NCBI GenBank assembly: GCA_024682835.1
Contig: JAIKYU010000032.1
Span: 1 to 61,574 of the forward strand
Source of the DNA: Lachnospiraceae bacterium
GTDB taxonomy: Bacteria > Bacillota > Clostridia > Lachnospirales > Lachnospiraceae
Direction of reading: 5' to 3'
DNA length: 61,574 nucleotides
Part shown: in pieces, positions 7,855 to 25,075 of the stretch
Layout of the letters: every line of letters starts with the position of its first letter
Numbering within the stretch: the first letter of the stretch is position 1
Position numbers and translations under genes: made by a program
Notes under the pieces: model-generated
What the model was told of the DNA's origin: nothing
Seen by the model: only the letters and a program-made list of their open reading frames with translations
Database searches by the model: none

Positions 7855-7883
7855 TTGATTTATTCCGTCAAACCACGTAAAAT
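7855..7883 (+). promoter_or_regulatory. Sigma-A type promoter of the hybrid kinase gene
   Basis: TTGATT (7855-7860), 17 nt spacer, TAAAAT (7878-7883). It lies 45 nt upstream of the ATG at 7928. A possible TTG start at 7883 overlaps the -10 box, which argues for the ATG. It also faces the divergent PseG-like gene. Confidence 0.6.
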
Positions 7884-7927
7884 TGGGAACGGCAGGTTCG
7901 CTGTTTTCGCCAGGGCGATATGTAACC

Positions 7928-10129
7928 ATGATTCTTGAACAGATAGGAAACATTTTCTCCATCCTGATGAATCTGACCGGACTGACCCTCTGTCTGTTCC
8001 GGTATTTTGAGCACCCCCGCAAAACCCTTGCCTTTTCGGTGATCTTCTTCCTGGGCAACATGCTCTCCAATTACTATTGGGGCGTATACATGCTTGTCAT
8101 GAATGACTATCCGAATGTTTCCTCGTTCCTTGCCTATCTCGGGTGGAACCTGGCCTTTATGATGCTTGTCTGCATGCAGTGGTGCCTGCGGAAGGAGCAC
8201 GGTATCCGCACCTTTTCCCTGTTATCTTTCATCCCGATCCCCGTCAATCTCGCCCAGCTGTTCCTGTATCTTCAGTTCGGCGGTATTTTCAACAATGTCT
8301 GGCAGGTCTTCTGGACCACGGCATCCGCCTGCCTCTCTCTGGATACGCTCATCGGTTACTTCCGAAACAGTAAAAAGGGAGCCGGGTTTCCATATATCAG
8401 TGCGGCCATCTTTCTCTTCATCACCAATGAATTTGCCACCTGGACTGTATCCTGTTTTGACTGGCCATCCGAATGGTCCAATCCCTACAATTACCTGAGT
8501 CTGCTCAACGGTGTCTTCTATCTCCTGATTCCGCTCGCGATTGCCGGGGAATACGTCACGGAGGAAATAATCCCGGGTGACGATTCCCGCCGGCGTCTTC
8601 TCAACATCTTCCGTCCGGCATATACGATCGTGGTCGCCGTCTGCTGCATCGGAGGATATTTCCTCGCTCTCTGGATGCGCGGCACGCTGTCCGCCGGCAT
8701 CGGAGAGACAGGTTCATCCGATCCCTACAGCGTGATTGCGGTCATGCTGTTCGTTGTTTCTCTGATCATCGTCTCCTTTACCATCACAATCATCCTGGTC
8801 GTCAATTCCGACAAGGAAAGCCGGGAAAAAGTGGCCCTCGAAACCGCCAGACAGGACGCCGTGAAGTCCAACGCCGCAAAAATCGAATTTCTTGTCGATA
8901 TGTCGCAGGAAATCCGTACCCCCATCCATGCCATGCTCGGTATGAATGAAATGGTTCTCCATGAAACCACACAGGCGGAGCGTTCTCTCCCGCAGACCCG
9001 GGAGGAGCTTTCGCAGCTTCTGTCCAGTATCCGCGGTTATTCCGGCAGCATCACCGAGGCCGGCAATCATCTGCTCACGATCATCAATGATATCCTGGAA
9101 TACTCTCAGATCGAAGCCGGCAGAATGGCGATCGCGGACAATGCCTACCGCTTGAGCACCGTCCTGAACGATGTCAGCAACATGATCATCAGTCAGGCAA
9201 AAAACAAGGGGCTGAAATATGACGTCATCGTTGACGGGTCTCTTCCGGACAACCTTCGCGGAGACGACGTGTGCCTCAGGAAAATCATCGGGAATCTCCT
9301 GAGCAACGCGGTCAAGTACACGGATCATGGGAAAATTGCCCTGTTTGTTTCGGAGAACAAGCTCTCCGGCAAATCCCACAGCGGGGAAATTGACCTGGAA
9401 ATCTCCGTAAAAGACACCGGCGTCGGGATCAGCGAGGAAGACATTGCAACACTGTTTGACAGATTTGAGCGAACGGTCAGCAATAAGGATCTCTCTGCCG
9501 ATCACAGCGGTCTGGGTCTTGCAATAACCAAACGTCTGTTGGAGACGATGGGCGGCAACATCTCCGTGGAAAGCCGTCCTGGCCGCGGTTCCACCTTTAC
9601 TGCCACCATTCCGCAGCAGATCATCTCACTGGATCCGATCGGTGATTATAGGGTAAGGTACGAAAAAGAACCCGATCTGCGGCAGTTCCGAAACGAATCC
9701 TTCCATGCGGATCACGCCCAGATCCTGATCATCGATGATATGGCAATGAACCATGCCGTGATCATGGGATTGCTCCGGAAAACGGGAATCCGGATCGAGA
9801 CGGCCACCGGCGGTGAGGAGGCAATCAAGCATTGCAGAAACACCCATTACGATCTGATCCTGATGGATCAGGGGATGCCGGAAATGGACGGGATCACAGT
9901 CATGCAGCACATCCGGAAGGATCCGGAGAGCAGGAACATCCGAACGCCGTTTATCTGTCTCACGGCAGATACCCTATCCGGCACGCAGGAGAATGTCCCC
10001 TCCGGCGGATTTCAGGATTATCTTTCCAAACCGATTGACTACGAAAGGCTGGAAAAAATGCTGCTGAAGCATCTCCCGAAAGACAAAATCATCCTAATTG
10101 ACAACGCTTCCTCAAAAACCGAAGGTTGA
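7928..10129 (+). CDS. Membrane hybrid histidine kinase lacking the phosphoacceptor histidine
   Basis: 733 residues: about eight membrane helices (1-300), a dimerisation helix region (about 305-375), HATPase (about 410-560; NLLSNAVKYTD, DTGVGISEED, SGLGLAITKRL) and a receiver domain (about 600-720; IDD, LILMDQGMPEMDG, DYLSKPID). The H-box reads SQEIRTP, where the family has SHEIRTP: codon 327 (8906-8908) is CAG, so His is Gln. The ATP-binding site and the receiver Asp are intact. It may act as an allosteric partner, a phosphatase, or a receiver phosphorylated by another kinase such as the one at 20145. Its stop is 3 nt from the convergent GNAT gene. Confidence 0.85.
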   Translation: MILEQIGNIFSILMNLTGLTLCLFRYFEHPRKTLAFSVIFFLGNMLSNYYWGVYMLVMNDYPNVSSFLAYLGWNLAFMMLVCMQWCLRKEHGIRTFSLLSFIPIPVNLAQLFLYLQFGGIFNNVWQVFWTTASACLSLDTLIGYFRNSKKGAGFPYISAAIFLFITNEFATWTVSCFDWPSEWSNPYNYLSLLNGVFYLLIPLAIAGEYVTEEIIPGDDSRRRLLNIFRPAYTIVVAVCCIGGYFLALWMRGTLSAGIGETGSSDPYSVIAVMLFVVSLIIVSFTITIILVVNSDKESREKVALETARQDAVKSNAAKIEFLVDMSQEIRTPIHAMLGMNEMVLHETTQAERSLPQTREELSQLLSSIRGYSGSITEAGNHLLTIINDILEYSQIEAGRMAIADNAYRLSTVLNDVSNMIISQAKNKGLKYDVIVDGSLPDNLRGDDVCLRKIIGNLLSNAVKYTDHGKIALFVSENKLSGKSHSGEIDLEISVKDTGVGISEEDIATLFDRFERTVSNKDLSADHSGLGLAITKRLLETMGGNISVESRPGRGSTFTATIPQQIISLDPIGDYRVRYEKEPDLRQFRNESFHADHAQILIIDDMAMNHAVIMGLLRKTGIRIETATGGEEAIKHCRNTHYDLILMDQGMPEMDGITVMQHIRKDPESRNIRTPFICLTADTLSGTQENVPSGGFQDYLSKPIDYERLEKMLLKHLPKDKIILIDNASSKTEG

Positions 10130-10132
10130 CGC

Positions 10133-10711
10133 TCAGGACCGCGCATCCGGGTGGCTTTTTTTCTCCATGCTGTCCAGAATCAGACCGACGAAGGCGCCGG
10201 TCACAACGCCGGCGACCGTGCCGACCCAGGGATTTGAAAGCACAATCCCCAAAACGAAGCCGGCCGTAATTCCCACAGAAAGATACAATCCGGCCCATGC
10301 GCTTTTCTGTCTCTTCATGGAGTAATAATCCCGGCCGTCCTTGTGCTCGCGGAACACATACCCTGCCTTTTCGAGGGCATGCACACAGCGGTCGTTCTCA
10401 TGCTCGCACACGGCACAGATCTCCCGCAAATCCCGAAACCGAAAAACAAACTTTGCCATGAAGTAAAAGATCTCCGCTCCGTATCCTCTGTTGCGATACT
10501 CCGGTGCGAGATCCACGCAGATTATCACCTCGCCGGGAACCTTGCTGCCGCCGATGCGCATGGAGCCGATGGTATCCCGTGTCCCGTCGCGCTGCTGCAC
10601 AATCCAACTGCCATTCCAGAGATCCTCCTCCTTTTCCGGCCTGAACAGCAGGTGATCGGAAACCAGCGGAAACCGAAGGCTGTTCTTCCCGGACTGGCTA
10701 TCTGTTCTCAT
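10133..10711 (-). CDS. GNAT acetyltransferase-like protein with C-terminal membrane hairpin
   Basis: 192 residues. The first about 130 residues resemble the GNAT fold (VDLAPEYRNRGYGAEIFY is the acetyl-CoA binding motif R/QxxGxG/A; the segment ALEKAGYVFRE follows). The remainder has two hydrophobic helices rich in Gly and Val, suggesting a membrane anchor, which is unusual for this family. The ATG at 10711 has GGAGGAAAGAG upstream and overlaps the CDF gene by 14 nt, so expression is coupled. The substrate is unknown. Confidence 0.72.
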   Translation of the reverse strand: MRTDSQSGKNSLRFPLVSDHLLFRPEKEEDLWNGSWIVQQRDGTRDTIGSMRIGGSKVPGEVIICVDLAPEYRNRGYGAEIFYFMAKFVFRFRDLREICAVCEHENDRCVHALEKAGYVFREHKDGRDYYSMKRQKSAWAGLYLSVGITAGFVLGIVLSNPWVGTVAGVVTGAFVGLILDSMEKKSHPDARS

Positions 10712-11585
10712 CTCTTTCCTCCGCGGGATTAACATGTATCATCACATGCTTGACACTCGGAAACTCGCTTTCCACGCTATCATGCACGCGTTCGGCAATG
10801 GCATGCGCATGAAGCAGGGAAACGTCCCTCTGCACGGCTATTTCAAGATCAATATAAATCTTATTGCCAAACTGTCTCGTCCGCAGCAGATCGATCTGCT
10901 CGACGCCCTCCTGTCCCTCCACAAAGCTGCGGAGTTTTTCCTCAAAGGCACTGTCGCAGGAGGTGTCCAGCATCTTGTTGACCGCGTCACGAAAAATGTC
11001 GTAGGCCACCTTGATGATGAACACGCAGATTACCAGACTCGCAATGGGATCCATGATCGCCAGTCCAAGCTTCGCAAGCCCGATACCCAGGAAGGAGCCG
11101 ACGGATGAAATCGCATCCGAACGATGATGCCACGCATCTGCCTTAAACGCAGGTGAATCAAGCTTTTTGGCGTAGTACATGGTATACCAGAACATGGCCT
11201 CTTTGACGACAATGGAGATGATCGCGGCGATTAACGGCAGCATGGTCGGTATCTCCAGCGCTTCAGAGCCGAAAAACAGCTTGCGTGCCCCGGTAACGCC
11301 GATTCCGATCCCGGTTCCTGCAAGAATGAGCCCCAGAAGCATCGACGCGACACATTCCAGCCGCTCATGACCGTAGGGATGCTCCTTATCTTCCTCCCGC
11401 TGCGACATGATCACGCCGATATATGCGATCAGGGTTGCAAAGACATCCGAAAAGGAATGGACGGCATCCGACACCATGGCGCCGGAGTGTCCGAACAGTC
11501 CCGCCAGAAGCTTAAAAACCGCCAACAGGACATTCCCGAAGATTCCGACATTGGAAAGTCTTTTTACGATCCGCTGTTCATTCAT
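10698..11585 (-). CDS. Cation diffusion facilitator family metal exporter
   Basis: 295 residues: six membrane helices (about 12-210) and a C-terminal cytoplasmic domain (about 215-290). The metal-site motifs are SDAVHSFSD in helix 2 and HHRSDA in helix 5, and HPYGHER lies in the loop between. CDF proteins export Zn, Mn, Fe or Co from the cytosol in exchange for protons; the metal cannot be fixed from these motifs. It is the first gene of a two-gene unit with the GNAT protein and diverges from rhaD. Confidence 0.9.
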   Translation of the reverse strand: MNEQRIVKRLSNVGIFGNVLLAVFKLLAGLFGHSGAMVSDAVHSFSDVFATLIAYIGVIMSQREEDKEHPYGHERLECVASMLLGLILAGTGIGIGVTGARKLFFGSEALEIPTMLPLIAAIISIVVKEAMFWYTMYYAKKLDSPAFKADAWHHRSDAISSVGSFLGIGLAKLGLAIMDPIASLVICVFIIKVAYDIFRDAVNKMLDTSCDSAFEEKLRSFVEGQEGVEQIDLLRTRQFGNKIYIDLEIAVQRDVSLLHAHAIAERVHDSVESEFPSVKHVMIHVNPAEERDENR

Positions 11586-11700
11586 GAAAAGAATTACCTC
11601 CGCACACCGGCGGACTGCTGTCCCGACCGGATCACTGATCTAAAGAATATCACAACAGACAGCCGCCAACAAGCCCGAACAGAACATCCTCCTTTCCTAT

Positions 11701-11729
11701 TCACAGATGCGGTCGATTTTGCTATACTG
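11701..11729 (+). promoter_or_regulatory. Promoter of the rhaD-signalling operon
   Basis: TTCACA (11701-11706), 17 nt spacer, TATACT (11724-11729), 36 nt before the rhaD ATG. It is the only good sigma-A-like match seen in the divergent region 11586-11764. Confidence 0.6.
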
Positions 11730-11764
11730 TTAAGATATGAAAAACCATGCACGGAGATAATACC

Positions 11765-12619
11765 ATGAACAACATCCTGAACGCACCCTTTCTGACAGAA
11801 CTGGTGCGCACCTGCACGAATATGTACAACCACGGCTGGGATGAACGCAACAGCGGAAATATCAGTATCCTGCTGGACGAAGCGGACGTCTCTGCCTGTC
11901 TGGACGTAACGCACGTCCTGCGCACCATTCCGACCGGATTTTCCGCACCCGAGCTCAACGGCAGATACTTTCTCGTCACCGGTACCGGCAAGTATTTTAA
12001 AAACGTGCAGGTTGCACCGGACGAAAACCTCGGTCTCGTGCGCGTCGTCGATAGCGGCCGGTCGGTGGAGCTCCTCTGGGGATTCTCCGACGGCGGCACG
12101 TTCACCAGCGAATTCCCCGCCCACATGATGAGCCACACGGCACGGCTTTCCGTGAGTCCCGAAAACCGGGTAGTCATGCACTGCCATCCCGCCAACCTTC
12201 TGGCCATGACCTACGTCCATGATCTGGACGAGCGTTCCTTTACCCGGACCCTCTGGCAGATGTGCACCGAATGCGTTTTCATCTTCCCCGAAGGGGTCAA
12301 TGTCCTGCCCTGGATGGTTTGCGGCACCAACGAAATCGGTCAGGCCACCGCAGAAAAGATGAAAACCGCCCGTCTCGTTGTCTGGGCTCACCACGGAATC
12401 TATGCCGCCGGGCGGGATCTGGACGAGACCTTCGGTCTCATCGAAACGGCGGAAAAGGCCGCAGAGATCTACCTGAAAATCGCCCACCTGCCGCTTTTAC
12501 AGACGATCACCGACGAACAGCTGCACCAGCTGGAAATGCGTTTTCATGTCAAAGCAAGAGAGGGTTATTTAAACATCCGACCGGTTCAGTCTGGTCCGGA
12601 AGGAGCACGAGACAGATGA
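11765..12619 (+). CDS. rhaD: L-rhamnulose-1-phosphate aldolase
   Basis: 284 residues, class II aldolase family. It cleaves L-rhamnulose 1-phosphate to dihydroxyacetone phosphate and L-lactaldehyde in the cytosol. Zn ligands are visible in MHCHPANL and AHHGIYAAG, a Glu in PEGVNVLPWM is in the usual place, and the N-terminus carries the RNSGNIS phosphate-binding loop. The ATG at 11765 follows GGAG with suitable spacing; an ATG 18 nt earlier has no binding site. Its TGA overlaps the ATG of the next, HD-GYP, gene. No rhaA or rhaB is in the window, so it is separated from the rest of its pathway. Confidence 0.93.
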   Translation: MNNILNAPFLTELVRTCTNMYNHGWDERNSGNISILLDEADVSACLDVTHVLRTIPTGFSAPELNGRYFLVTGTGKYFKNVQVAPDENLGLVRVVDSGRSVELLWGFSDGGTFTSEFPAHMMSHTARLSVSPENRVVMHCHPANLLAMTYVHDLDERSFTRTLWQMCTECVFIFPEGVNVLPWMVCGTNEIGQATAEKMKTARLVVWAHHGIYAAGRDLDETFGLIETAEKAAEIYLKIAHLPLLQTITDEQLHQLEMRFHVKAREGYLNIRPVQSGPEGARDR

Positions 12620-15600
12620 AAAACTGGAAAACATGGCAGATCGTACTGTTTATCGCTGCATGCGTATCCCTGAATATTTGCGGCAAACTGATTTCCGTAT
12701 GGCTGGAGCTGCCTCTGTGGGCTGATTCATTCGGCACCGCGCTATGCGCCACTATCGCCGGGCCGGTCTGCGGCGCGCTCGTGGGCGTGACGGGCAATCT
12801 GGCTTACTGCGTTATCAACCACCTGTCAGCGGCGTATTCCATTACCAGCATCTCGCTCGGCGTCATTATCGGAATCGCAGCGCGCAGAAAGTGGTTCGAC
12901 CGCTTCTATGGCTTTATGAAAGCCGCCACACTGGCCACGCTCACGGCACTCGTTGTCTCCGTACCGGTGAACCTGCTGTTTGACCACGGACATACCGGCA
13001 ACAAATGGGGAAACGGTGTCATCGACTATCTTCTGGCCAAATCATGGCCTCCTTTCCTGTGCAGTATCCTCGGTCAGCTGGCTCTCGAATTTGCCGACAA
13101 GGTGCTCACGATCGCCGCTGTGTACCTGGTCATTCTTTTCCGTCGCTGGGACAGGGAGAAGAGCCGTGAACGGGCGATGCAGTTTGGCAAAAACATAAGC
13201 CCCCTCATTCTTCTTTTTCTGTCCGCGGGTCTCGCCCTGTCCTTGTCTGCAACTGCCAAGGCATCATCCGATTCCTCTCACACGGACTACAACGACTATG
13301 TCCAGAGTATCTACAGCAGCAACAACGGCCTGCCCTGCGGCGAAGCCAACGACATCGCGCAGACCAATGACGGCGTCCTCTGGATCGGCACCTATGCGGG
13401 ACTGTATCGATATAACGGCCGTGAATTCCGCTGGGTGGACAATTATGAATCCGTCAAAAACGTAAACTGCCTTTATGTGGACGAGGAAGGCCGCCTGTGG
13501 ATCGGCACCAATGACAACGGTCTCTCCATTGCGATCCGCGAAAAAGTCGTCAATGTGCTCGACCAGTCAAGCGGGCTCCCGTCCAATTCCGTGCGATGCA
13601 TCGTCCGGGCGTCAGACAACTATTACTATGTCGGCACCACTGCCAGCATGCAGATCCTTGTGATGAATAACGGTCTGAAGGCCACGAACACACTTGAAGA
13701 GGTGAACTATTCCGACAGCATCACGGCCGATCTGAACGGGCATGTGGCCGTGATTGCTTCCAACGGACGGCTCTTCCTGATGAAAAAGGGAGACGTTCTG
13801 ACTTCCCTCCAGCTTCCGGACGAACAGGAACTGTTTAACTGCTGCGCCTTTGCACCGGACGGGACCCTGATGGTGGGCACATCGACCAATCATATTTACC
13901 GCTACGACGTTTCCGGCGATGATTTCAGGCAGATCGACATCACAACCTGTGAAAACGTCAACAGCATCAACAATCTGAACTACTTAAGCGACGGTACACT
14001 GTTTATCTCCACCGACAGCGGCATCTCCTACATAAACCAAAGCGGCTACCAGACACTGAATACCAACGAATTCAATAACTCCATCGACCATATGCTCTGT
14101 GACTATCAGGGAAATCTCTGGTTTACCTCCTCCAGACTCGGTCTGCTGCGGCTTGCCAAATCTCCGTTCAAGGACGTTTACGGTTCGATCGGTATGGAAC
14201 GGCGGGTGGTCAATGCCATTGTTTTCTGGCAGGGCTGTTATTACATCGGCACCGACAAGGGACTGGATGTGGTTGACGAGTCCTGCCGCAATCAGCTTAC
14301 GAATGACCTGACCGCCGAGCTGGACGGCAGACGGATCCGCTGTATGTACGTGGACAGTGAAAACCACCTTTGGGTCTGCACCTACGGAAACGGCCTGATG
14401 GAATACGCGCCGGACGGCAAATCGTGGAGCTACAACGCGAAAAACGGCAGCTTCGGAAACCGGGCCCGGATCGTGACCGGCCTGTCGGACGGAACGATTC
14501 TGGCCGCCGGCGATACCGGAATCAGCTATATCAGTGATCATAAGATCACACGAACCATCCGGAATGAGGACGGCCTGATCAACTCCATGATTCTGACGCT
14601 GACCGAGAAGAGCGACGGCACCATCCTCGCGGGAACGGACGGAGACGGAATCGCCGTGCTCAAGGACGGTAAGGTACAGCGCATGCTCACCCGCGAGGAC
14701 GGTCTCAGCAGCGGCGTCATCCTCCGCACGATCAAAGATCCGAAATCCGAAGGGATATTCGTTGTCACCAGCAACAGCTTGTGCTATCTCGATCCGGACG
14801 ATTCCATCCGCGTGCTGGAGAAATTCCCGTACTACAACAACTATGATATCTGGGTAAAGGATGATGACACCCTTTTCGTCATGTCCAGCGCCGGCATTTA
14901 TGTCGTGGAACGCGATGAGCTTGTGGCCGGCGGCGAGATCGCCTGGGAGCTTCTGGACGCACGGCGCGGACTGGGAACCTCTCTGACCGCCAATTCCTGG
15001 AACTATTACGACGGAAACGGTGAATTATATCTCCCCTGCGACACGGGTGTTTACATTATAGATGTCGGAAAATACAACAACGATGTCCGTTCCTACCGGA
15101 TGCAGCTCGCTGCCGTCCGGCTGGACGGTGTTTTGCAGCCGCCGGTCCGCAAGGGCGCCATCTCGGTTCCACAGGGCGTGGATCGCATCGAGCTCTACCC
15201 GGAGATCCTGAACTACACCATCCAGGAGCCAAACATCGGCTACTATCTCGAGGGCTACGACTCACAATGGGCGATCGTCCCGCAGAACAATCTGAACAAT
15301 ATCATCTACGTCAACCTCCCGGCGGGCAGTTACACCTTCCATCTGGCCATTCTCGACAGCGCCGGGGAACGTGTTCTTGAGGACCGCAAATTTGATCTCC
15401 TTAAGGAGGGCGAGCTCTATGAGCAGCCGTTCTTCCAGATTTATATGCTGCTGCTCCTTTCCATGATTCTCATCTGGTTTACCTGGCTCGTGGTGCAGCG
15501 CCAGCTGAACCAGCAGCAGATCAAGCTGAATATGGCGAACGAGACGGTCAACGCGATCGCCAACGCCGTCGACGCCAAGGACGTGCGCACCCACCAGCAC

Positions 15601-16272
15601 TCCATGCGCGTAGCGGAATACTCCGTGCTGATTGCGCAGGAAATGAACTGCTATAAATGGTGGCAGAAGAAAAAAGCGCTCAGCAGTCTCAAAAAGGCGG
15701 CTCAGCTGCATGATATCGGCAAGATCAGCGTGCCGGACAGCGTCTTAAACAAGGTCGGCCGATTGACCGATGAGGAGTATGCGCAGATGAAATCCCACGT
15801 GATTAAGGGTGCGGAGATCCTGAAGGATTTCACGCTGGTGGAGCACGTCGAGGAGGGTACCCGGTATCACCATGAACGCTACGACGGACGCGGCTATCCG
15901 GATGGTCTGAAGGGGGAGGAAATCCCGCTCATCGGCCGGATCATCGGTGTTGCCGATGCCTTCGACGCGATGACCTCCAATCGTGTCTACCGCAACCACA
16001 TGGATACCGACTATGTGTTGAACGAAATGAAGCGCGGACGGGGCACGCAGTTCGACCCGAATGTACTGGATGCTTTTTTCCGTCTGATTGATAAGGGCAT
16101 CATCAATCTGGAGGAGCTCTATAAACAAAAGCGTGAGGAGATCCGGCATGCGGATCAGGAAGCACAGGAAGAACTCGCCCGCCGCGTGGAAGAGGACAAA
16201 AAGATCCAGGCTGCCCGATTGCAAAATGAGAGCAAGAAGGTGCCGGCTGAAAAGGAGGGTTCCGAGACATGA
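12616..16272 (+). CDS. ECF-S-like membrane domain / beta-propeller / HD-GYP signalling protein
   Basis: 1218 residues. Residues 1-210 resemble an ECF-transporter S component (several helices; GTALCATIAGPVCGALVG). After a helix at about 195-212 comes an extracytoplasmic beta-propeller of two-component-regulator repeats (repeated LWIGT, LWVCT and similar, about 240-830), then a Y_Y_Y-like Ig domain (about 840-930) and a membrane helix (about 940-960). Last is a cytoplasmic HD-GYP domain (about 975-1170) with HDIGK, HHERYDGRGYP and GVADAFDAMT, and a charged coiled-coil tail. HD-GYP domains hydrolyse c-di-GMP, and the motif here is complete. An S-component-type sensor on a reg-prop/HD-GYP chain is unusual. 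It overlaps rhaD and the next gene by 4 nt each. Confidence 0.87.
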   Translation: MKNWKTWQIVLFIAACVSLNICGKLISVWLELPLWADSFGTALCATIAGPVCGALVGVTGNLAYCVINHLSAAYSITSISLGVIIGIAARRKWFDRFYGFMKAATLATLTALVVSVPVNLLFDHGHTGNKWGNGVIDYLLAKSWPPFLCSILGQLALEFADKVLTIAAVYLVILFRRWDREKSRERAMQFGKNISPLILLFLSAGLALSLSATAKASSDSSHTDYNDYVQSIYSSNNGLPCGEANDIAQTNDGVLWIGTYAGLYRYNGREFRWVDNYESVKNVNCLYVDEEGRLWIGTNDNGLSIAIREKVVNVLDQSSGLPSNSVRCIVRASDNYYYVGTTASMQILVMNNGLKATNTLEEVNYSDSITADLNGHVAVIASNGRLFLMKKGDVLTSLQLPDEQELFNCCAFAPDGTLMVGTSTNHIYRYDVSGDDFRQIDITTCENVNSINNLNYLSDGTLFISTDSGISYINQSGYQTLNTNEFNNSIDHMLCDYQGNLWFTSSRLGLLRLAKSPFKDVYGSIGMERRVVNAIVFWQGCYYIGTDKGLDVVDESCRNQLTNDLTAELDGRRIRCMYVDSENHLWVCTYGNGLMEYAPDGKSWSYNAKNGSFGNRARIVTGLSDGTILAAGDTGISYISDHKITRTIRNEDGLINSMILTLTEKSDGTILAGTDGDGIAVLKDGKVQRMLTREDGLSSGVILRTIKDPKSEGIFVVTSNSLCYLDPDDSIRVLEKFPYYNNYDIWVKDDDTLFVMSSAGIYVVERDELVAGGEIAWELLDARRGLGTSLTANSWNYYDGNGELYLPCDTGVYIIDVGKYNNDVRSYRMQLAAVRLDGVLQPPVRKGAISVPQGVDRIELYPEILNYTIQEPNIGYYLEGYDSQWAIVPQNNLNNIIYVNLPAGSYTFHLAILDSAGERVLEDRKFDLLKEGELYEQPFFQIYMLLLLSMILIWFTWLVVQRQLNQQQIKLNMANETVNAIANAVDAKDVRTHQHSMRVAEYSVLIAQEMNCYKWWQKKKALSSLKKAAQLHDIGKISVPDSVLNKVGRLTDEEYAQMKSHVIKGAEILKDFTLVEHVEEGTRYHHERYDGRGYPDGLKGEEIPLIGRIIGVADAFDAMTSNRVYRNHMDTDYVLNEMKRGRGTQFDPNVLDAFFRLIDKGIINLEELYKQKREEIRHADQEAQEELARRVEEDKKIQAARLQNESKKVPAEKEGSET

Positions 16273-17462
16273 AGCGCGTATATATCACTACGGTACTGAC
16301 CTGTCTGGGCATCCTTGCCTTTTTTCTCGGCTGCTTCCGGCTCATGAACCTCACCGGCCAAAGGTCGCATCTGACTGTCGGTTTTGTCTATGACAACGAT
16401 GAAAGCACGCCCTACACCTACAACTTCTCGCTCGCCAAAGATGCGCTGGAAAAAGAATACGGCGACCGTCTGGATATCCTTTCATGCAGCAACGTGATGG
16501 ATGACGAAATGGAGGAACCGCTCAGGGAGCTGGCCGAAAAAGGCTGCGATATCATTTTCTTCAACGGCTACAGCACGCTGGTGCGGACGCTTGCTCCGGA
16601 ATATCCGAATATTCAATTCTGTCAGACGTCCTATATGGACATGAGTGATCAGACGGTTCCCGCCAACTACCACACCTTTAAGGGCGAAGCCTACCAGGGT
16701 CGGTATGTCAGCGGTATTGCCGCGGGTATGAAGATCAAACAGATGATCTCGGATGGGATCATTTCAGAGGATCGGGCTCTTGTCGGTTTTGTCGCCGCAT
16801 TTCCCACCTCCGAGGTCATTTCCGGCTACACTGCCTTTCTGCTGGGCGTCCGCTCCATGGTGCCGACTGCCAAAATGCATGTGCGCTACACACATACCTG
16901 GAGCAGCTACCCGCAGGAAAAGAGTGCGGCTCAACAGCTTTTGAGTGAAGGCTGTGTGGTCATCTCCCAGCATACCGACACCATCGGACCGGCCATTGCC
17001 TGTGAGGAGGCATCAGAAACAAGTCCTGTCTGTTTTGTCGGCAACAATCAAAGCATGTCGGAGATTGCGCCGGGCACCTCCCTGATCACGTCGAGAATCT
17101 GTTGGGAGCCCTATGTGCTCGCTGCCGTGGATGCGGTCATGTCCAACAAGAGCATCGAATCAAACCTCTCCGGCCGGATCCACGGGACCGATGTGTCCGC
17201 TGGATTTGATCAAAGCTGGGTGGAAGTGGATGATCTGAATCTGCAGATCGCCGCACCCGGCACCCAGGAGGCCATGGATCATGCCATTGAACTTTTTCAG
17301 CGCGGCTACACCGATATTGTGTTCAAGGGCAATTACATCGGCATCAATCCGGAGGATCCCTCCGATGTGCTGGATCTGAAGGACGGTTACACGGAGAACG
17401 TGAACACCTCTTATCCCCTGTTTCACTACATCCTGAAGGACGTCATCACCATCGAAGAGTAA
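16269..17462 (+). CDS. BMP/Med (PnrA-like) family extracytoplasmic binding protein
   Basis: 397 residues with an N-terminal hydrophobic segment (about 5-24) containing FFLGC. The Cys at 22 may be a lipobox, though the sequence is atypical and the segment could be a plain anchor. The rest matches the basic membrane protein/Med fold of periplasmic nucleoside-binding proteins (LTVGFVYDNDE, CDIIFFNGY, GRYVSGIAAGMK, VGFVAAFP, VISQHTD). No ABC transporter genes for it are nearby, and it overlaps the HD-GYP gene by 4 nt. It is therefore probably a ligand sensor for the signalling proteins rather than a transporter subunit. Confidence 0.82.
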   Translation: MKRVYITTVLTCLGILAFFLGCFRLMNLTGQRSHLTVGFVYDNDESTPYTYNFSLAKDALEKEYGDRLDILSCSNVMDDEMEEPLRELAEKGCDIIFFNGYSTLVRTLAPEYPNIQFCQTSYMDMSDQTVPANYHTFKGEAYQGRYVSGIAAGMKIKQMISDGIISEDRALVGFVAAFPTSEVISGYTAFLLGVRSMVPTAKMHVRYTHTWSSYPQEKSAAQQLLSEGCVVISQHTDTIGPAIACEEASETSPVCFVGNNQSMSEIAPGTSLITSRICWEPYVLAAVDAVMSNKSIESNLSGRIHGTDVSAGFDQSWVEVDDLNLQIAAPGTQEAMDHAIELFQRGYTDIVFKGNYIGINPEDPSDVLDLKDGYTENVNTSYPLFHYILKDVITIEE

Positions 17463-17486
17463 AACGTTGTAGAGAGGAGTAAAAAA

Positions 17487-17705
17487 ATGGCACCAAATGT
17501 GGAATCAAAATTTCAGCTCATTCTCGAGAAGAAGCTGAAGTACACCTCGGCAAATCTCGGATTCAATATGCTGATCAGCAAGCTGCAGAGAAAGCTTGCA
17601 AGCGATCCGGGATGTTTGACCGAGTGTCTCAGGGAAGCCGACGAGTTTGCCGCCAAGTTTCCCGCTGTTGTAAACGCCGACTTCGCAAGGATCTCGGCTC
17701 TTTGA
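17487..17705 (+). CDS. Small helical protein of unknown function
   Basis: 72 residues, with a good GAGAGGAGT binding site before the ATG. It is predicted mostly alpha-helical (FQLILEKKLKYTSANLG; LISKLQRKLAS), with a single Cys pair position (CLTEC) and no signal peptide. Not recognised. It lies 24 nt after the BMP gene and 38 nt before the UGA-interrupted gene, so it belongs to the same operon and may be a partner of one of the neighbours. Confidence 0.6.
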   Translation: MAPNVESKFQLILEKKLKYTSANLGFNMLISKLQRKLASDPGCLTECLREADEFAAKFPAVVNADFARISAL

Positions 17706-17743
17706 AAACCGGATCTTATTATTTGACAAAAGGAGGAATGACC

Positions 17744-18706
17744 ATGCTTGTATCATTAGACGAAGCCATCACATTGATCAACGAGAGAAGGATCCTGCAT
17801 ATTGCGGGCGACGATTCCCTGCTCTCCCAGCTTCCCGTCGGTAAGTGAGTCGGCGGCACCACCCCCTATTTCATTTCGGAAGACGGCGGCATCCTGACCA
17901 AGGAAAAGCTGTTTGTCAACGAGTTCTCTTTTGCGGAGGACGTCCGGGTAGCCGTCTACGGCAAGTACAATGTTTTCCAGATCGTCGAAGAGTGCTTTGA
18001 CAACGGTCTGACCATGCTGATCCTGCCCTACAGTGCCGCGGTGACGGAGAAATATGCCAAGGAAGCGCCCGATGTGGAGGAGCTGCTGCTGCATCCGACG
18101 ATCGGCTGGGTGACGGGCTGCGATCTGAACGACATGAGCGACACAAAGGCCTATGACGGCACGACCGGCAAATCCTATACTGACAGGGCGGTCGCCATGT
18201 ATCTCAAGCTGCCCGAGGGGAAAAACGCCATCATCAATATCGTCAATATCTTTGAGGACGACAAGGACGACCCGGTCATCACCTTCCCCGAAAACGCGCT
18301 TGACGTCACCAAATGCAAGGTGGACGGTAAAGAGGTCAGCTTTGCGGAATACATCGGCACACATGGCATCGACACGCAGATGCCGCTTGTAGCGGACTAC
18401 AACGGTGTCTATATCAACATTTCCATCAAATCGGTGGATGCCGGCCGGGTGGGCTTCTACGCACCGGTCTTCAAGGGCATCGAGTACCGCTTTGCCAAGC
18501 GTGTAAATAATTACGTGGAGGAATTCAACAACCGGATCGATGCATCCGGCGCACAGAAGCCCGTATTCTCCTGCAACTGCATCCTCAATTATCTCTACGG
18601 CAATCTCGAAGGGAAAAAGACGCCTCCCTATGCCGGGCCGGTCACCTTTGGTGAAATCGCTTATCAGCTGCTCAATCAGACGCTGACCTACTGCGAGATC
18701 GTCTGA
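17744..18706 (+). pseudogene. DUF6976/FIST-like protein gene interrupted by an in-frame UGA
   Basis: The ATG at 17744 (AGGAGGAATGACC upstream) opens 34 codons ending LPVGK, then TGA at 17846-17848, and the same frame runs on for 285 codons (VGGTTPYFISEDGG to TLTYCEIV) without another stop. Together this makes a 320-codon protein of normal appearance. I recall proteins of this type with a Trp-Ile-Gly-Gly-Thr segment at this point, so a TGG-to-TGA change is the simplest reading; selenocysteine or read-through are alternatives. No convincing SECIS-like hairpin was seen just downstream. The family assignment (sensor-like protein found near c-di-GMP and kinase genes) is tentative. An internal ATG at 18014 could yield a shorter product. 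Confidence 0.65.
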
Positions 18707-18770
18707 TTTCCAAGACTGAATAATCATGCGGGATCATTGACTGTCTGTTCGGAGCAAAAGAGGATTCATC

Positions 18771-20121
18771 ATGGGTGGTAAGAAGCGAAAAATCAACATG
18801 ACTTCCAGGTATCTGTTGTTGCTTGCCCTTTTTTCCATTCTGGTCAATATCTTTCTTGGCGTTCTCCTGACCAGACAGTCTGCCAATTCGATCAGAAGCC
18901 TCATGCGTTCCAGAATGCTGGACATCTCCCGGACGGCCGCCAGTCTCATCGACGGAGATAAGCTGCGTTCCCTCTCGCCTGAGGATGCGGGAACCGAATC
19001 CTATGAGGCAATCATGAAGGTGCTGTCCGGTTTCAAGGACAACATCGAACTCTCCTACATCTATTGTGTCCGCGACATGGGAGACGGCAGTTTCACCTTC
19101 ACCCTTGATCCGTCGGTTGACCCCGGCGTGTTCGGCTCGCCGGTCGTATATACCGACGCGCTCTATCAGGCAAGCCGCGGAAAAGACGCCGTCGATCTGG
19201 TTCCCTACACGGATGCCTGGGGCACCTTCTACAAGTGCATACAGCCCGGTGTTTGATTCCAATGGAAGCGTGGCCGGCATTGTCGCCGTGGATTTCAGTG
19301 TGGAGTGGTATAACAAACAGATCCGGGCCATGACCCTGGTGACGATTGTCATCTGCATTCTGTCCCTCGTGATCGGATTATCGGCGGCGCTCCTCCTGAT
19401 CAAAAGTTCAAAAAAACGTGTCCGTACCGTCAACGAACAGCTGAACAAGCTGTCGGTCAGCATCGAAGCCCTGATGCTGGAGGTCAGGAATATGGCGGGC
19501 GACAACGAAGCAAATCCCACGGACAGCGGGGAGACGAAACAGTATGATATCGACGATCTTGACTCGCTGACCCAGAAAATCGATGTCATGCTCTCTGATC
19601 TGGGCACCCAGATCGATAAGGTGCATGAGCAGGCCTATTATGACCGGGTTACCGGAGTCATGAACAAGGAATGCTATCTGAGCACCAAAAATGTCATGGA
19701 TGATATGGCCAAAGAAGGATTTGCCGAGTTTTCAATCCTGATATACAGCCTGAATGCATTGAGCGAAATCAACAGGGTGTACGGGCACGAGTATGGCGAT
19801 ATGGCCCTTTCGGACGCCGCCGGCATCCTCGCTTCCGTTTTCGGCAAGGAGCGGGTGTTTAGAACCGGCGGTGAGGAGTTCACCGTCATCACCGAGACCA
19901 CTTCCATCTCCGATATACAGAACGGCTTTTCGCGGGTCGATTTCCAGATCGCAGCAGAGAATGCCAGAGAAAAGCCCTATCATCACACCCTGAGCCTTTC
20001 GATGGGATATGCTGTTTTCGATCCGGAAAACGATCACGGATATATGGATGTGTTCCAACGCGCCGATCAGATGAGAAATGCAAACAGAGCGATCGACACG
20101 GCGGAGCCGGGGAGTGAGTAA
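18771..20121 (+). pseudogene. Membrane sensor with GGDEF-like domain, frameshifted
   Basis: The first frame (18771-19256) encodes a membrane helix and an extracytoplasmic sensor up to WGTFY. One extra A at about 19233-19234 then shifts the frame: removing it gives WGTFYSAYSPVFDSNG, the usual Cache-type continuation, and the second frame runs to 20121. The rest encodes a second helix, a coiled linker and a GGDEF domain (about 290-440) with RTGGEEF. The metal-binding Asp of the usual FDLN motif is Ser (IYSLNAL), so diguanylate cyclase activity would be doubtful even if the frame were intact. Either a real mutation or a sequencing error; neighbours show similar damage. Confidence 0.75.
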
Positions 20122-20144
20122 GTAACGGCGAAAGGGAAGAAGCG

Positions 20145-23100
20145 ATGCATACCAAAACAGTGACAGGAAAGTCCATACTTCTCAAAAACGCTCTGGTTTC
20201 GATCCTCATCATCGTATTTTTTGCCGCCATCATTATCGGTTATTACCGAATGCTGATCGCAGAAAAACAGGACAGCATTATCCGGGATGGAGAGATCTCC
20301 GCCAAAAAGGCCGAGACAGAGATTGACCAATATCTGGCCACCAGCATCGATGCCATCCGGCTGACGGCGTATATGACCGAATCGATGATCGACGAACACA
20401 AATCGAATGAGGAAATCCTGGAATATCTGTCCGGACAGTCCGTTGCCGTGATGAACGCAGTCTTCATCAACACCACCGGTATCTATGCGCTCATCGACGG
20501 CGAGTACCTTGACGGTGCCGGCTGGATCCCGGACGAGGACTATGTGCCGACCGAACGGCCCTGGTATTACAAAACCATCGAAAACAACGGCGAAATCACG
20601 ACGATCGAACCCTACGTCGACATGCAGACCGGTTCGGTTGTGATGACACTGGCCAAAATGCTGAAGGACGGCAAAAGTGTCGTCGCACTGGATGTTTTTC
20701 TTGACCGGATACAGGAAATCGTCGAGGAATCGGATCCCTCCGGAGAAACCAGACAGCAGATCATCCTGGATGATCAGAATATGATCATCGCCCACACGGA
20801 CCGGAGCGAGGTCGGGAACGTGTTCGGCGCAGAGCCGGGAACACTGGATGCGGCATGTCTTGAACAGCTCAATCTTGCAGACAGAGATCATTACGAGTTC
20901 AAATATCAGGGTTCCCAGTATATTGTTTATCAGGTAAAAATGCTGAATGGACTGCGCTGCCTGTCCATTGAGGATGCATCTGTCATGTTCCGGCCCCTGA
21001 GGGTTCTGCTCGCAGTCACGTTCGTCGTGATGCTTCTGATCGTTTCCATCCTCGGCGTGATCCTTTACCAGTCCGGGAAGCGGGCTGTGGTCGCAGAGCA
21101 GCTAAACTCACAGCTTTCCTCGGCGGTTGAAATCTATCACTCCGTTCAGGATCTGAATATTCCGGCCGGCACCTTCACCAATATCCGGATCAATGACGAC
21201 AGAATCACCGGGGTTCTTTCTTCGAACCATGCAAACGCCCAGGACGGCCTGTTTGATGTTCTGAACCACTTTGTTGAGCCCATGTCCAGAGAAGAGGTTC
21301 TGCGCTTCGCCGATCTCTCCACGCTCAACGAACGCCTCCGGGACCGCCGTTCGATCGCGAAAGAATTCCTCAGTACGGAAAATCACTGGTTTCGCGGGAG
21401 ATTTATCGTATCGGAGCGCACGCCGGACGGGAGGATCCTGCATGTCCTCTGGCTGGTTGAGGACATCGACACGGAGAAGCGTCAGCGTGATCAGCTTCTC
21501 GAGACCGTCACCAAGATGAACGAGCAGATGTCGTCTGTCGCAAATATCTATTTTTCGATGTACGACATCGACCTCGCCAACGATATGCTTCAGGAGCTGC
21601 GCACAAGCGTCGGGGAGGAATCCGGATCTGACAGCGACCACATCGAACATGCCCAGACGGTCATGTATGCGATGATGGATGAGACATCGCATGAGCAGTC
21701 CAGAAATGCGATCCATTCGTTCATCGATCTCTCGACGCTGTCCGAACGCATGAAGAACACGAACACCATCACAGAAGAATTCCTGAACTCCAAGGATGTC
21801 TGGTGCCGGACAAGGTTTGTCATTTCCAAGCGGGATATGGACGGAACGATCGGCCACGTCCTCTGGCTGGTCGAGGGCATCGACGAAGAAAAACGGCGAA
21901 GAGACAGTCTGATTGACATGTCCGAGCGCGCGATCGCAGCCAGCGAAGCGAAATCCTCCTTCCTGTCGAACATGTCGCATGAGATCCGCACGCCCATCAA
22001 TGCGGTGCTCGGCATGAATGAGATGATCCTGCGCGAAAGCGATGACAAAACGTCCTCTCCTATTCCGAAAGCATCCGAACGGCAGGCAACACCCTGCTGG
22101 GTATCGTCAACGATATTCTCGACTTCTCAAAAATCGAAGCAGGCAAAATGGAAATCATTCCGATCGATTACGATCTTTCCTCTGTTCTGAACGATCTTGT
22201 CAATATGGTTCAGACACGCGCGGACGACAAGGGCCTTCTGCTGAAGCTGGAATTTGACCCGAATACGCCCAAACGCCTCCACGGCGATGAGGTACGCATC
22301 AAACAGATCATCACGAACATTTTGACCAACGCGGTCAAGTATACGGAAAAAGGCAGCGTGACCTTTGCGGTGAGTTTTGAACGTACATCGGACGAGGACG
22401 TGATTTTCCTGAATGTGTCCGTCAGAGACACCGGTATCGGCATCAAGGAAGAGGATATGGCAAAGCTGTTCTCGGAGTTTGAGCGGATCGAGGAAAAACG
22501 CAACCGGAACATCGAGGGCACAGGACTGGGCATGAATATCACCCAGCGTCTGCTTGGCATGATGGGCTCCGCCCTGAAGGTGGAAAGTGTTTACGGTGAA
22601 GGCTCGGTATTCTCCTTCCGGCTGGAACAGCATGTCACCGCGTGGGAAGAACTCGGAGATTATGAAGAGTCCTACCGCGCTTCCCTCTCAAAACGAAGCG
22701 TTTCCAAGGCGAGGCTCTCCGCTCCGAACGCGATTGTGCTCGTCGTCGATGACACACCGATGAACCTCATGGTGTTCAAGAGTCTGCTCAAGCGCACCAA
22801 AGTCCGGATCGATACGGCCGCGAGCGGCGATGAGGGTCTGGCTCTGTCCTATGACAAGAAATACGATATGATTTTCCTTGATCACATGATGCCGCAGAAG
22901 GACGGAATTGAAACCCTTCACGAGCTGCGCTCACGTGAAAAGGATCCGAATATCAACACGCCGACGATCTGCCTGACGGCAAACGCCATCTCCGGCGCGC
23001 GGGAGAAATATCTCGCCGAGGGCTTCGATGATTATCTGACCAAGCCCATCGACTCCGTCAAGCTGGAGGAAATGCTTCTGAATTATCTTCCTGCGGAAAA

Positions 23101-23743
23101 AATCGAAGAGGCGGCCGATGAGGAACCCGTCGCCGACACCGCGGCAGCAAAACCGGAAATTCCCGATGCGCTGCAGCCGCTCAGCGGGCAGGACTGGATC
23201 GATATCAGCCTCGGTATAAAAAACAGCGGCGACACGGAAACCTACCTGCCTCTGCTGAAGATCTTCTACGAGTCGATGGATGATAAGGCCGAAGAGATCG
23301 AACGCTTCTACGCGGAAGAAAACTGGAGCGACTATACCATCAAGGTTCACGCGCTGAAAAGTTCGGCCCGGCTCATCGGAGCGACCGGTTTCGCTAAAGA
23401 AGCACAGCAGCTGGAAAACGCCGGCAAGAGCAGCGACATCGCATACATCCGGGCAAATCACCGGGATTTTATGACGAAATTGCAAGGCTTCAAAGCGCCG
23501 TTGGAAGAGATCTTCCTCAAACAGGAGGAAGAGAATAAACCGGAGGCGGATGCCGATCTGCTGGCTGTCTGCTTCGACGAAATCCATGCGGCTGCCGAAG
23601 ACTGCGATTACGACCGGTTGGACAACATTTTCAATGAACTGTCGGCCTACCGCATCCCGACGGAGCATGAAGAACGCTTCCGAAAGATCCTGGACGCCGC
23701 AAAGCGGTTCGATTATGACGCAATCAAAGCACTCTTCCCGTAA
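20145..23743 (+). pseudogene. Cache-domain hybrid histidine kinase with receiver and Hpt, frameshifted
   Basis: Intact N-terminal part: helix (about 10-32), dCache-type sensor (RPWYYKTIENNGE), second helix (about 285-310), and two similar PAS-like segments each ending HVLWLVE. The H-box (SHEIRTPINAVLGMNEM) follows. At 22047-22050 the run AAAA appears one A short: restoring it gives DDKNVLSYSE and joins the second frame (to 23743). That frame holds HATPase (NAVKYTEKG, DTGIGIKEED), a receiver (FLDHMMPQKDG, DYLTKPID) and an Hpt domain (HALKSSARLIG). As sequenced, the kinase half is cut before its ATP-binding domain. If intact it would be a full phosphorelay protein. The start at 20145 has GGGAAGAAGCG upstream. 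Confidence 0.8.
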
Positions 23744-23770
23744 GGGGACGATCGTCACACGCAGGTGTTC

Positions 23771-25075
23771 CTACACCACCCTGACCAGCAGTTCCACGAC
23801 GAAACCGTTGTCATTGTAATACTCCAGCCCGCCTTCCTGCTTTTCCATGTAGGTCCTGGCCAGATACATGCCAAGGCCATAGCCGGTACGGCCGGAGGAA
23901 TTGCTGCCCCGGTAATACTTCTCCGAAAGCAGCGGCAGATCCTCCTGATCCACACCGGGACCCTCGTCGCGGATCGTGATCCGGATGAAGCGGATGGGCG
24001 AACCATCCGCCTTCCGCAGGTTGCTGACCTGCGAAAAGCTCACATGGATATCGGTGCCGGCATATTTCGCGGAATTGGACACAATATTGTCGACGACCTG
24101 TTCCATCCGCTTCCTGTCCAGAAAGACCAGGCAGGGATGGATATGGTTGTCGAGAATGATATTGCCGTAATCCGTAAGTTCCCGGAAAAACCCCTCGATA
24201 ACCGTCGACTGCTCTTCGCGGGGGCTCACCTCGACCTCTTCAAGTTCCTCCAGATTGGCGTGCATCACATCGCTCATCAGGCCGCTGATGGTATCCGCCT
24301 TTCCCGAGATGGTGCGCACTTTATCGAGCAGGTCGCTTATCTCCTCCTGTGCGGCCTCGTCCCCGTCCCCAAGCCTGCGCGTCAGTTTGATCTCCATCAC
24401 CTCACAGGCCGCACGGATCACGGCAAGCGGCGTCTTGATATCGTGGGAAAGTCCCTGCGTCAGCTCCTTTCGGGCAATCTCCGCCTCCCGTTCCTTATTA
24501 ATCGACGCTTTCAACTGCTCCCGCATGATATCAAAGCCTTCGACAAAGCTCCCGAAGAGATTGTTCCGGTGAATCGGCAGCGGCTTGTCCAGTTCACCCT
24601 TCGCGATATCCGCCGCAAAGGATTCCAGTTCCTCCACCGGCTTTAAGAATGAGAGATACAGATACAACAGCAGCAGATAGCCGATGACCAGCACGCATCC
24701 GCACAGGAGGGCCGCGGCCTTAAGATAGTTCCCGCCCGTTCTGTCGTAGTGTTCCTCCAGATCATTCCAGACCACCTTACCCGTGATCACGCCGTTGTCC
24801 TCCAGATCGAGGATCAGTGCGCCAGAGCGGTAGTATGCGGCGAGTTCCGGCGGATCGGGTTTATCGGAGAGGAACAGGACACAGCCGTAGCGTGCCTCGA
24901 TCTCCTCTTCAGGCGTCCCGGCGGCCAGTTCCTCCTGCACTCGGTAGCGACGGTCATTGTAATCGATGATATCCCGCTCCGTGTATATCGTATTCCTGCT
25001 CAGGACGACAAAAACAGCCAGTGCCCCCAGCATGAACAGCGTGAAGAGAACGGCCAGACGTCTGATCTGCTTCAT
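23771..25075 (-). CDS. Sensor histidine kinase of the MacAB-like efflux locus
   Basis: 434 residues. Two membrane helices (about 8-27 and 145-168) enclose a short extracytoplasmic domain, followed by HAMP-like linker, HisKA with SHDIKTPLAVIRA (the phosphoacceptor His is present) and HATPase (NIVSNSAKYAG, DEGPGVDQED, GYGLGMYLA). The start at 25075 overlaps the response regulator stop (ATGA). Longer frames run into the regulator gene. Its position after efflux genes suggests it senses a drug or peptide, as in BceS/VanS-type systems. It faces the plus-strand hybrid kinase gene tail to tail with a 27 nt gap. Confidence 0.9.
   Translation of the reverse strand: MKQIRRLAVLFTLFMLGALAVFVVLSRNTIYTERDIIDYNDRRYRVQEELAAGTPEEEIEARYGCVLFLSDKPDPPELAAYYRSGALILDLEDNGVITGKVVWNDLEEHYDRTGGNYLKAAALLCGCVLVIGYLLLLYLYLSFLKPVEELESFAADIAKGELDKPLPIHRNNLFGSFVEGFDIMREQLKASINKEREAEIARKELTQGLSHDIKTPLAVIRAACEVMEIKLTRRLGDGDEAAQEEISDLLDKVRTISGKADTISGLMSDVMHANLEELEEVEVSPREEQSTVIEGFFRELTDYGNIILDNHIHPCLVFLDRKRMEQVVDNIVSNSAKYAGTDIHVSFSQVSNLRKADGSPIRFIRITIRDEGPGVDQEDLPLLSEKYYRGSNSSGRTGYGLGMYLARTYMEKQEGGLEYYNDNGFVVELLVRVV

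Follow-up and report, generated by a model that had tools for sequence, protein, structure and literature searches.

A membrane HD-GYP protein and an adjoining BMP-type binding protein as a putative two-protein receptor for c-di-GMP control in Lachnospiraceae

Introduction

In Vibrio cholerae, the extracytoplasmic binding protein NspS steers MbaA, a membrane enzyme of cyclic dimeric guanosine monophosphate (c-di-GMP) turnover (PMC8967002), and purine sensors of the dCache_1 type also modulate c-di-GMP (PMC11245519). Here we describe two adjoining genes, designated A1 and A2, in a 61,574-nucleotide stretch of DNA from a Lachnospiraceae bacterium (GenBank assembly GCA_024682835.1, contig JAIKYU010000032.1, positions 1 to 61,574 of the forward strand; hereafter the window) that belongs to a draft assembly totalling 3.22 Mb over 154 contigs. 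A1 (12616..16272, + strand) encodes a putative receptor of 1218 amino acids and A2 (16269..17462, + strand) a binding protein of 397 amino acids and the BMP/PnrA type. From their sequences, we propose with moderate confidence that the two proteins together form a surface receptor for a purine-type ligand that would control c-di-GMP breakdown. Few descriptions exist of what feeds c-di-GMP signalling in the Lachnospiraceae of rumen and gut. The A1/A2 pair offers a receptor together with its partner and a likely class of ligand, and two proteins would suffice to assay input and output. If correct, the proposal would add a second route from purine to c-di-GMP, unrelated to the dCache sensors, and provide a clear example in which a binding protein of the transport type became a receptor subunit.

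The arrangement proposed here resembles NspS-MbaA in that a binding protein would report its ligand to a membrane c-di-GMP enzyme, and the genes for binder and enzyme are adjacent in all 67 relatives of the locus that were compared. The components differ, however, as A2 belongs to the BMP/PnrA family and is predicted to be membrane-anchored whereas NspS is a polyamine binder, and A1 combines a membrane bundle resembling the S component of energy-coupling factor (ECF) transporters with a propeller and an HD-GYP domain whereas MbaA is a GGDEF-EAL protein. By analogy, A1 and A2 may work like NspS-MbaA, but the pair is not a member of the NspS-MbaA type. Hybrid two-component systems with Reg_prop/Y_Y_Y sensors exist, and A1 shares the propeller and Y_Y_Y sensor with these but differs by its HD-GYP output, its S-component-like bundle and its pairing with a second gene. 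A2 shares fold, sequence, an aromatic sandwich and Glu/His/Asp contacts with AtzT and the protein of structure 3s99 (PMC6834077), but those proteins are thought to serve uptake whereas A2 has a transmembrane anchor and is constantly paired with a phosphodiesterase gene. The dCache_1 sensors follow the same logic from purine to c-di-GMP, but with an unrelated sensor domain inside the receptor protein itself (PMC11245519). In the literature searched, the A1/A2 combination was not found, although co-mentions of Reg_prop with HD-GYP do exist, and no paper joined PnrA with c-di-GMP, or propeller regulators with HD-GYP, or an S component with both HD-GYP and a propeller. The main text of the review PMC8846402 mentions none of propeller, NspS, purine, Bmp and substrate-binding.

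Conservation of the A1-A2 gene pair

Seven genes, all transcribed in one direction, occupy positions 11765-23743 of the window and encode, in order, RhaD, the propeller/HD-GYP protein (A1), the BMP protein (A2), a 72-amino-acid protein, a DUF6976 protein, a GGDEF membrane protein and a hybrid kinase. The first-pass annotation had described seven consecutive co-directional genes, which reading frames and family matches confirm, and had read them as one pathway from ligand to second messenger. What stands of that pathway is the combination of a binder lacking transporter genes with a c-di-GMP enzyme, namely A2 with A1; the remaining genes are local neighbours, and the expected seven-gene order is not conserved. 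The 67 relatives, mostly labelled Lachnospiraceae or Butyrivibrio, were found through six A2 peptide patterns; they sample relatives at close and intermediate distance and all hold A2 by design; counted among them are loci in which A1 (L042, L071) or A2 (L068) is split between frames and several that are cut by contig ends. A1 is located directly upstream of A2 in 67/67, with the exact 4-nt overlap present in the window (16269..16272, + strand) in 52 and with the genes 0-3 nt apart in 11 more. Across 250 genomes of the family, the source genome included, 19 have a BMP protein with at least 44% identity to A2, and A1 adjoins in 18 of these, the nineteenth being at a contig start. When A1 was used as the query, full-length orthologues (at least 67%) were found in 19 of 61 genomes of the genus, with fragments in one more, and A2 follows A1 in all ten loci fetched for this reverse test, the window's own included.

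There are no other conserved neighbours, the largest other cluster of open reading frames in the flanks covering 6 of the 67 loci. Genes for RhaD, the small protein and DUF6976 are each present in none of these flanks, with room upstream for rhaD in 58 loci and room downstream for the small protein and DUF6976 in 59. Matches to the first half of the window GGDEF gene occur in one locus and to its GGDEF half in three, and the two halves of the window kinase are matched in 7 and 11 loci; these matches are mostly at the level of domains and the order present in the window is not kept. Judged by these comparisons, the conserved unit is A1 plus A2, kept tightly together in many rumen and gut Lachnospiraceae.

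The binding protein and its likely ligand

A2 matches PF02608 with 76.6 bits (cut-off 24.1), and its nearest solved proteins, by both profile and fold, are AtzT and 3s99. In the fold search, AtzT (Foldseek E 6e-24) and 3s99 rank at the top, with nucleoside binders next. A hydropathy scan predicts a single N-terminal transmembrane helix, residues 4-22, by which A2 would be anchored outside the cell. No conserved lipobox Cys is present in an alignment of 35 of 84 BMP sequences, which was also used for the tree, and a lipoprotein anchor suggested by the LGC motif of the window A2 was rejected as this motif is not conserved in the alignment.

The affinity of AtzT is 0.11 uM for guanine and 2.5 uM for adenine, and its pocket contacts include Tyr45, Glu165, Trp194 and Asn218, with Tyr45 and Trp194 forming a ring sandwich (PMC6834077). 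These four residues correspond to Y49, E182, W211 and H235 of A2, the pairs having been read by hand from HMMER rows and the list of invariant positions. The A2 stretch QH(T/S)D, which holds H235 and D237, matches QHTD of 3s99, a structure modelled with adenine; D237 is paired with Asn220 of AtzT by motif position and through 3s99 rather than by alignment column. All five residues, Y49, E182, W211, H235 and D237, are invariant in 35/35 sequences, and A2 thus has the aromatic sandwich, the Glu and the QHTD/QNTN stretch that are features of the purine-binding BMP subgroup represented by AtzT and 3s99. On these residues, the ligand of A2 is likely to be of the purine type, namely adenine, guanine or a close analogue.

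Elsewhere in the same genome (L111:6794-9107, contig C135), two more tandem BMP-like frames are located at a contig end. One of them begins with a hydrophobic helix and lacks an evident lipobox, and these are possibly additional BMP proteins of the receptor type.

The receptor protein

A1, with family matches to Reg_prop, Y_Y_Y and HD_5 in Pfam and NCBIfam, is composed of an S-component-like membrane domain (residues ~1-190), which the first-pass description lacked, a propeller (~223-865), a Y_Y_Y domain (~866-935), a transmembrane helix (942-960) and an HD-GYP domain (~971-1165). The output is HD_5 and not a kinase plus response regulator, as in Reg_prop/Y_Y_Y hybrid kinases. The predicted fold of the N-terminal bundle has a predicted local distance difference test (pLDDT) score of 82.7, and its top seven Foldseek matches are S components or chains of ECF complexes (RibU, ThiT, folate) with probabilities of 0.96-1.00 and weak E values. 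By hydropathy, a helix at 194-212 precedes the propeller and another at 942-960 follows it, a topology consistent with a propeller outside the cell and an HD-GYP domain in the cytoplasm.

In the full-length alignment (57 of 60 sequences, with L020, L043 and L074 left out), the HD-GYP residues H1032, D1033, H1085, H1086, G1093, Y1094 and D1114 are present in 57/57 and P1095 in 53/57; as far as these residues tell, the active site is intact. Over 53 close relatives, mean identity reaches 84% in the HD-GYP domain, 79% in the propeller and 68% in the membrane bundle, and conservation of the propeller is as expected if this domain holds a fixed partner or ligand.

Proposed mechanism and alternatives

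In the mechanism that we propose, A2 would close around a purine-type ligand and dock on the propeller/Y_Y_Y part of A1. Docking would alter c-di-GMP hydrolysis by the HD-GYP domain of A1 across the membrane, with the S-component-like bundle possibly serving as a membrane sensor or anchor. The contact between A1 and A2, the direction of the effect and the ligand are the parts of this scheme that we infer.

Several observations weigh against this proposal. The distances of A1 and A2 are correlated (0.71 over 19 loci), but this is no evidence of contact because linked genes share history. At L020, a frame resembling the Hpt end of the window kinase (45%) starts right after A2, and the pair may therefore at times have a kinase-type neighbour. 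The frame-split copies of A1 in L042 and L071, and of A2 in L068, belong here, as does the lack of riboswitches at gathering threshold in the window and in 7 loci. As an S component the bundle scores low, with residues 11-173 matching the CD3073-type ECF S component NF045596 at 58.8 bits, far below the cut-off of 180, and with a best Foldseek E of 0.03 and none at 0.001. In the binding pocket, the Ser97/Phe98 site of AtzT falls in a two-residue gap (IFFN--GYS type) in the 20 close A2 sequences, so that details of the ligand may differ, while the 15 more distant sequences retain Ser at this site; AtzT Thr139 is aligned with Arg145 of A2, and Asn169 with Gly186. The gap adds to the case for the alternative that we take most seriously, namely that the two proteins do form a receptor but that the pocket has drifted and takes a ligand other than a purine (vitamin, pyrimidine or sugar); riboflavin and pyrimidine nucleosides are indeed among the ligands of related solved BMP-type proteins (4iil, 6yab). 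We consider this possible but unlikely, given the invariance of the five purine-contact positions and the first ranks of AtzT and 3s99 by sequence and by fold.

The N-terminal part of A1 is also found with other outputs. Related genes with a similar bundle and propeller have a GGDEF output in L146 (twice) and L150, and in L147 a kinase-like output with HisKA, receiver and Hpt domains and no HATPase match. Because related genes fuse such a part to GGDEF or kinase-like outputs, bundle and propeller together can be viewed as a portable sensor; no A2 relatives were found in six fetched regions that contain these related genes. A more speculative extension, which we hold to be improbable, is that bundle and propeller are a portable receptor chassis with a relative of a vitamin-transporter subunit as its signalling membrane domain, that the HD-GYP branch captured a binding protein from an ATP-binding cassette (ABC) transporter, and that this branch may engage a shared ECF module, so that import of a purine-type nutrient would translate directly into c-di-GMP breakdown. 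Slightly less probable still is direct coupling to transport, in which the S-component-like part of A1 would receive the ligand from A2 and import it via a shared ECF module, and the HD-GYP domain would read transport. The hidden Markov model and fold matches to S components are consistent with such coupling, as is the adjoining binding-protein gene in 67/67, but AxxxA, the docking motif in helix 1 of S components, is absent from the A1 N-terminal consensus of 34 sequences (of 67), no cognate ATPase gene stands beside the pair (a search that did not extend to the EcfT/EcfA genes of the genome), and conservation is lower in the bundle than in the propeller.

Further arrangements of bundle-propeller genes were also noted. 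The L147 gene for the HisKA/receiver/Hpt protein lies directly beside an HD-GYP gene (L147:4023-9544), and tandem pairs of bundle-propeller genes are present in three members of the genus (L146:4729-12400, L149, L151). In L017, another gene that shares this N-terminus and propeller (52% identity over 493 amino acids) is located 8.5 kb downstream of the pair (L017:14677-16152).

The origin of A2 is indicated by its nearest unpaired relatives. Five BMP matches with 37-43% identity have no A1 within 1.5-kb flanks, a related ABC ATPase gene adjoins in 5/5, and a lipobox-like stretch is present in all four for which the start was read. The paired BMPs form one clade that comprises all 35 sequences used (support 0.885). 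Matches to the cognate ABC ATPase (300 bits) are absent from all 67 paired loci, 59 of which have at least 1.3 kb downstream, and weaker ATPase matches occur in 15, the best two (270-277 bits) being ~5-6 kb distant and on the opposite strand. Based on these comparisons, A2 seems to share its origin with the binding lipoproteins of ABC transporters and to have lost the lipobox and the transporter genes, and because the nearest unpaired BMPs belong to ABC transporters, a transport protein has apparently been turned into a receptor subunit. The ATPase genes beside these outgroup BMPs could also be taken to mean that A2 is a transporter binding protein without its transporter, adjacent to A1 but unconnected with it, but adjacency in 67/67 with the 4-nt overlap in 52, the lack of a conserved lipobox in the alignment and the lack of the cognate ATPase gene at the paired loci make this very unlikely.

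Neighbouring genes in the window

An operon of all seven genes, rhaD included, that would form one pathway from ligand to second messenger is hardly credible, for although the genes are co-directional with 4-nt overlaps and short gaps, and related GGDEF genes come after A2 in L073, rhaD, the small protein and DUF6976 are in none of the 67 relatives, the small protein and DUF6976 occur separately from A1/A2 in 7 other genomes, three of the genes are broken, and another rhaD is present with a rhamnulokinase-like gene on contig C18. Two 4-nt overlaps, 12616-12619 between rhaD and A1 and 16269-16272 between A1 and A2, link the first three genes. A promoter had been placed at 11701, and a site with 10/12 matches is indeed present at 11700-11728, but such sites are not above chance frequency, with 11 in 11300-24000 versus 8.5 +/- 3.0 in shuffled sequences. 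The separate hybrid kinase gene at 7883..10129 (+ strand), considered earlier as a possible member, lies outside the A1/A2 transcription unit because two minus-strand genes, 10133-10735 and 10698-11585, intervene, and it was rejected as a partner on these grounds.

Downstream of A2, we favour a separate sensory neighbourhood, partly broken, in which the small protein, DUF6976, the GGDEF protein and the kinase would stand beside the pair in this genome. The genes for the small protein (17487..17705, + strand), which has no family match in domain searches, and for DUF6976 (17744..18706, + strand; PF22396, 357.8 bits for the stretch after an in-frame UGA) constitute what we designate module B. 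In 7 of 8 other genomes with DUF6976 (six further genomes were left out), the small protein is encoded directly upstream of it, and upstream of these two genes there is a directly adjoining match to the Hpt end of the window kinase in 6/7 and a GGDEF match in the seventh. Genome G264 has both the A1/A2 pair and this module on one contig, ~46 kb apart. Gene order marks the small protein with DUF6976 as a module of its own, which in other genomes has signalling genes next to it.

By analogy with NosP, a FIST protein that pairs with a partner kinase, a sensor role for DUF6976 is plausible because it appears distantly similar to FIST proteins. In hhalign, DUF6976 matches FIST with a probability of 81 and an E of 1.2e-5 over 217 columns, with unrelated controls at 1.9 and 0.2, although the 7 of 20 loci in the FIST set had been selected by length and by their end motif, a choice that biases towards the end motif in common; the match to PF10442, of the FIST family, has an E of 0.029. 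In both cases a FIST-like protein is encoded beside kinase genes, but the similarity of DUF6976 is only distant and module B adds the 72-amino-acid protein. Public data contain many DUF6976 proteins (4356 at E <= 1e-10), and a literature search by name found no paper on it.

The UGA reported by the first-pass annotation to split a protein is real, at 17846-17848, and lies inside DUF6976. The frame is uninterrupted at this position, with Trp, in 8/8 relatives from fetched loci and in 6/6 database proteins inspected of the 4356, and with Trp in all 14 relatives inspected, selenocysteine insertion or other recoding was rejected. Two further lesions, absent from the first-pass annotation, are frameshifts. 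The GGDEF gene (18771..20121, + strand) is interrupted near 19250, with frames at 18771-19256 and 19066-20121, and the hybrid kinase gene (20145..23743, + strand; dCache, HisKA, HATPase, receiver and Hpt) between about 22050 and 22150, with frames at 20145-22190 and 22148-23743. Read from the sequence, these lesions in DUF6976, GGDEF and kinase genes are damage or error and not recoding. Three lesions in three neighbouring genes, next to an intact core pair, suggest that the accessory block is decaying, with assembly error or a strain mixture as other possible causes. L073, the only one of the 67 loci that matches the first half of the window GGDEF gene, has two genes related to it following the pair (L073:11305-13310); a related gene that comes after A2 there has both halves in a single frame.

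The first gene of the run, rhaD (11765..12619, + strand), matches TIGR02624 with 411.9 bits (cut-off 400.95) and is located outside the conserved unit. The genome contains another copy, on contig C18, that is 72% identical and is near a rhamnulokinase-like gene (408 bits, below the cut-off of 528); a TGA flagged in this copy is an ordinary terminal stop.

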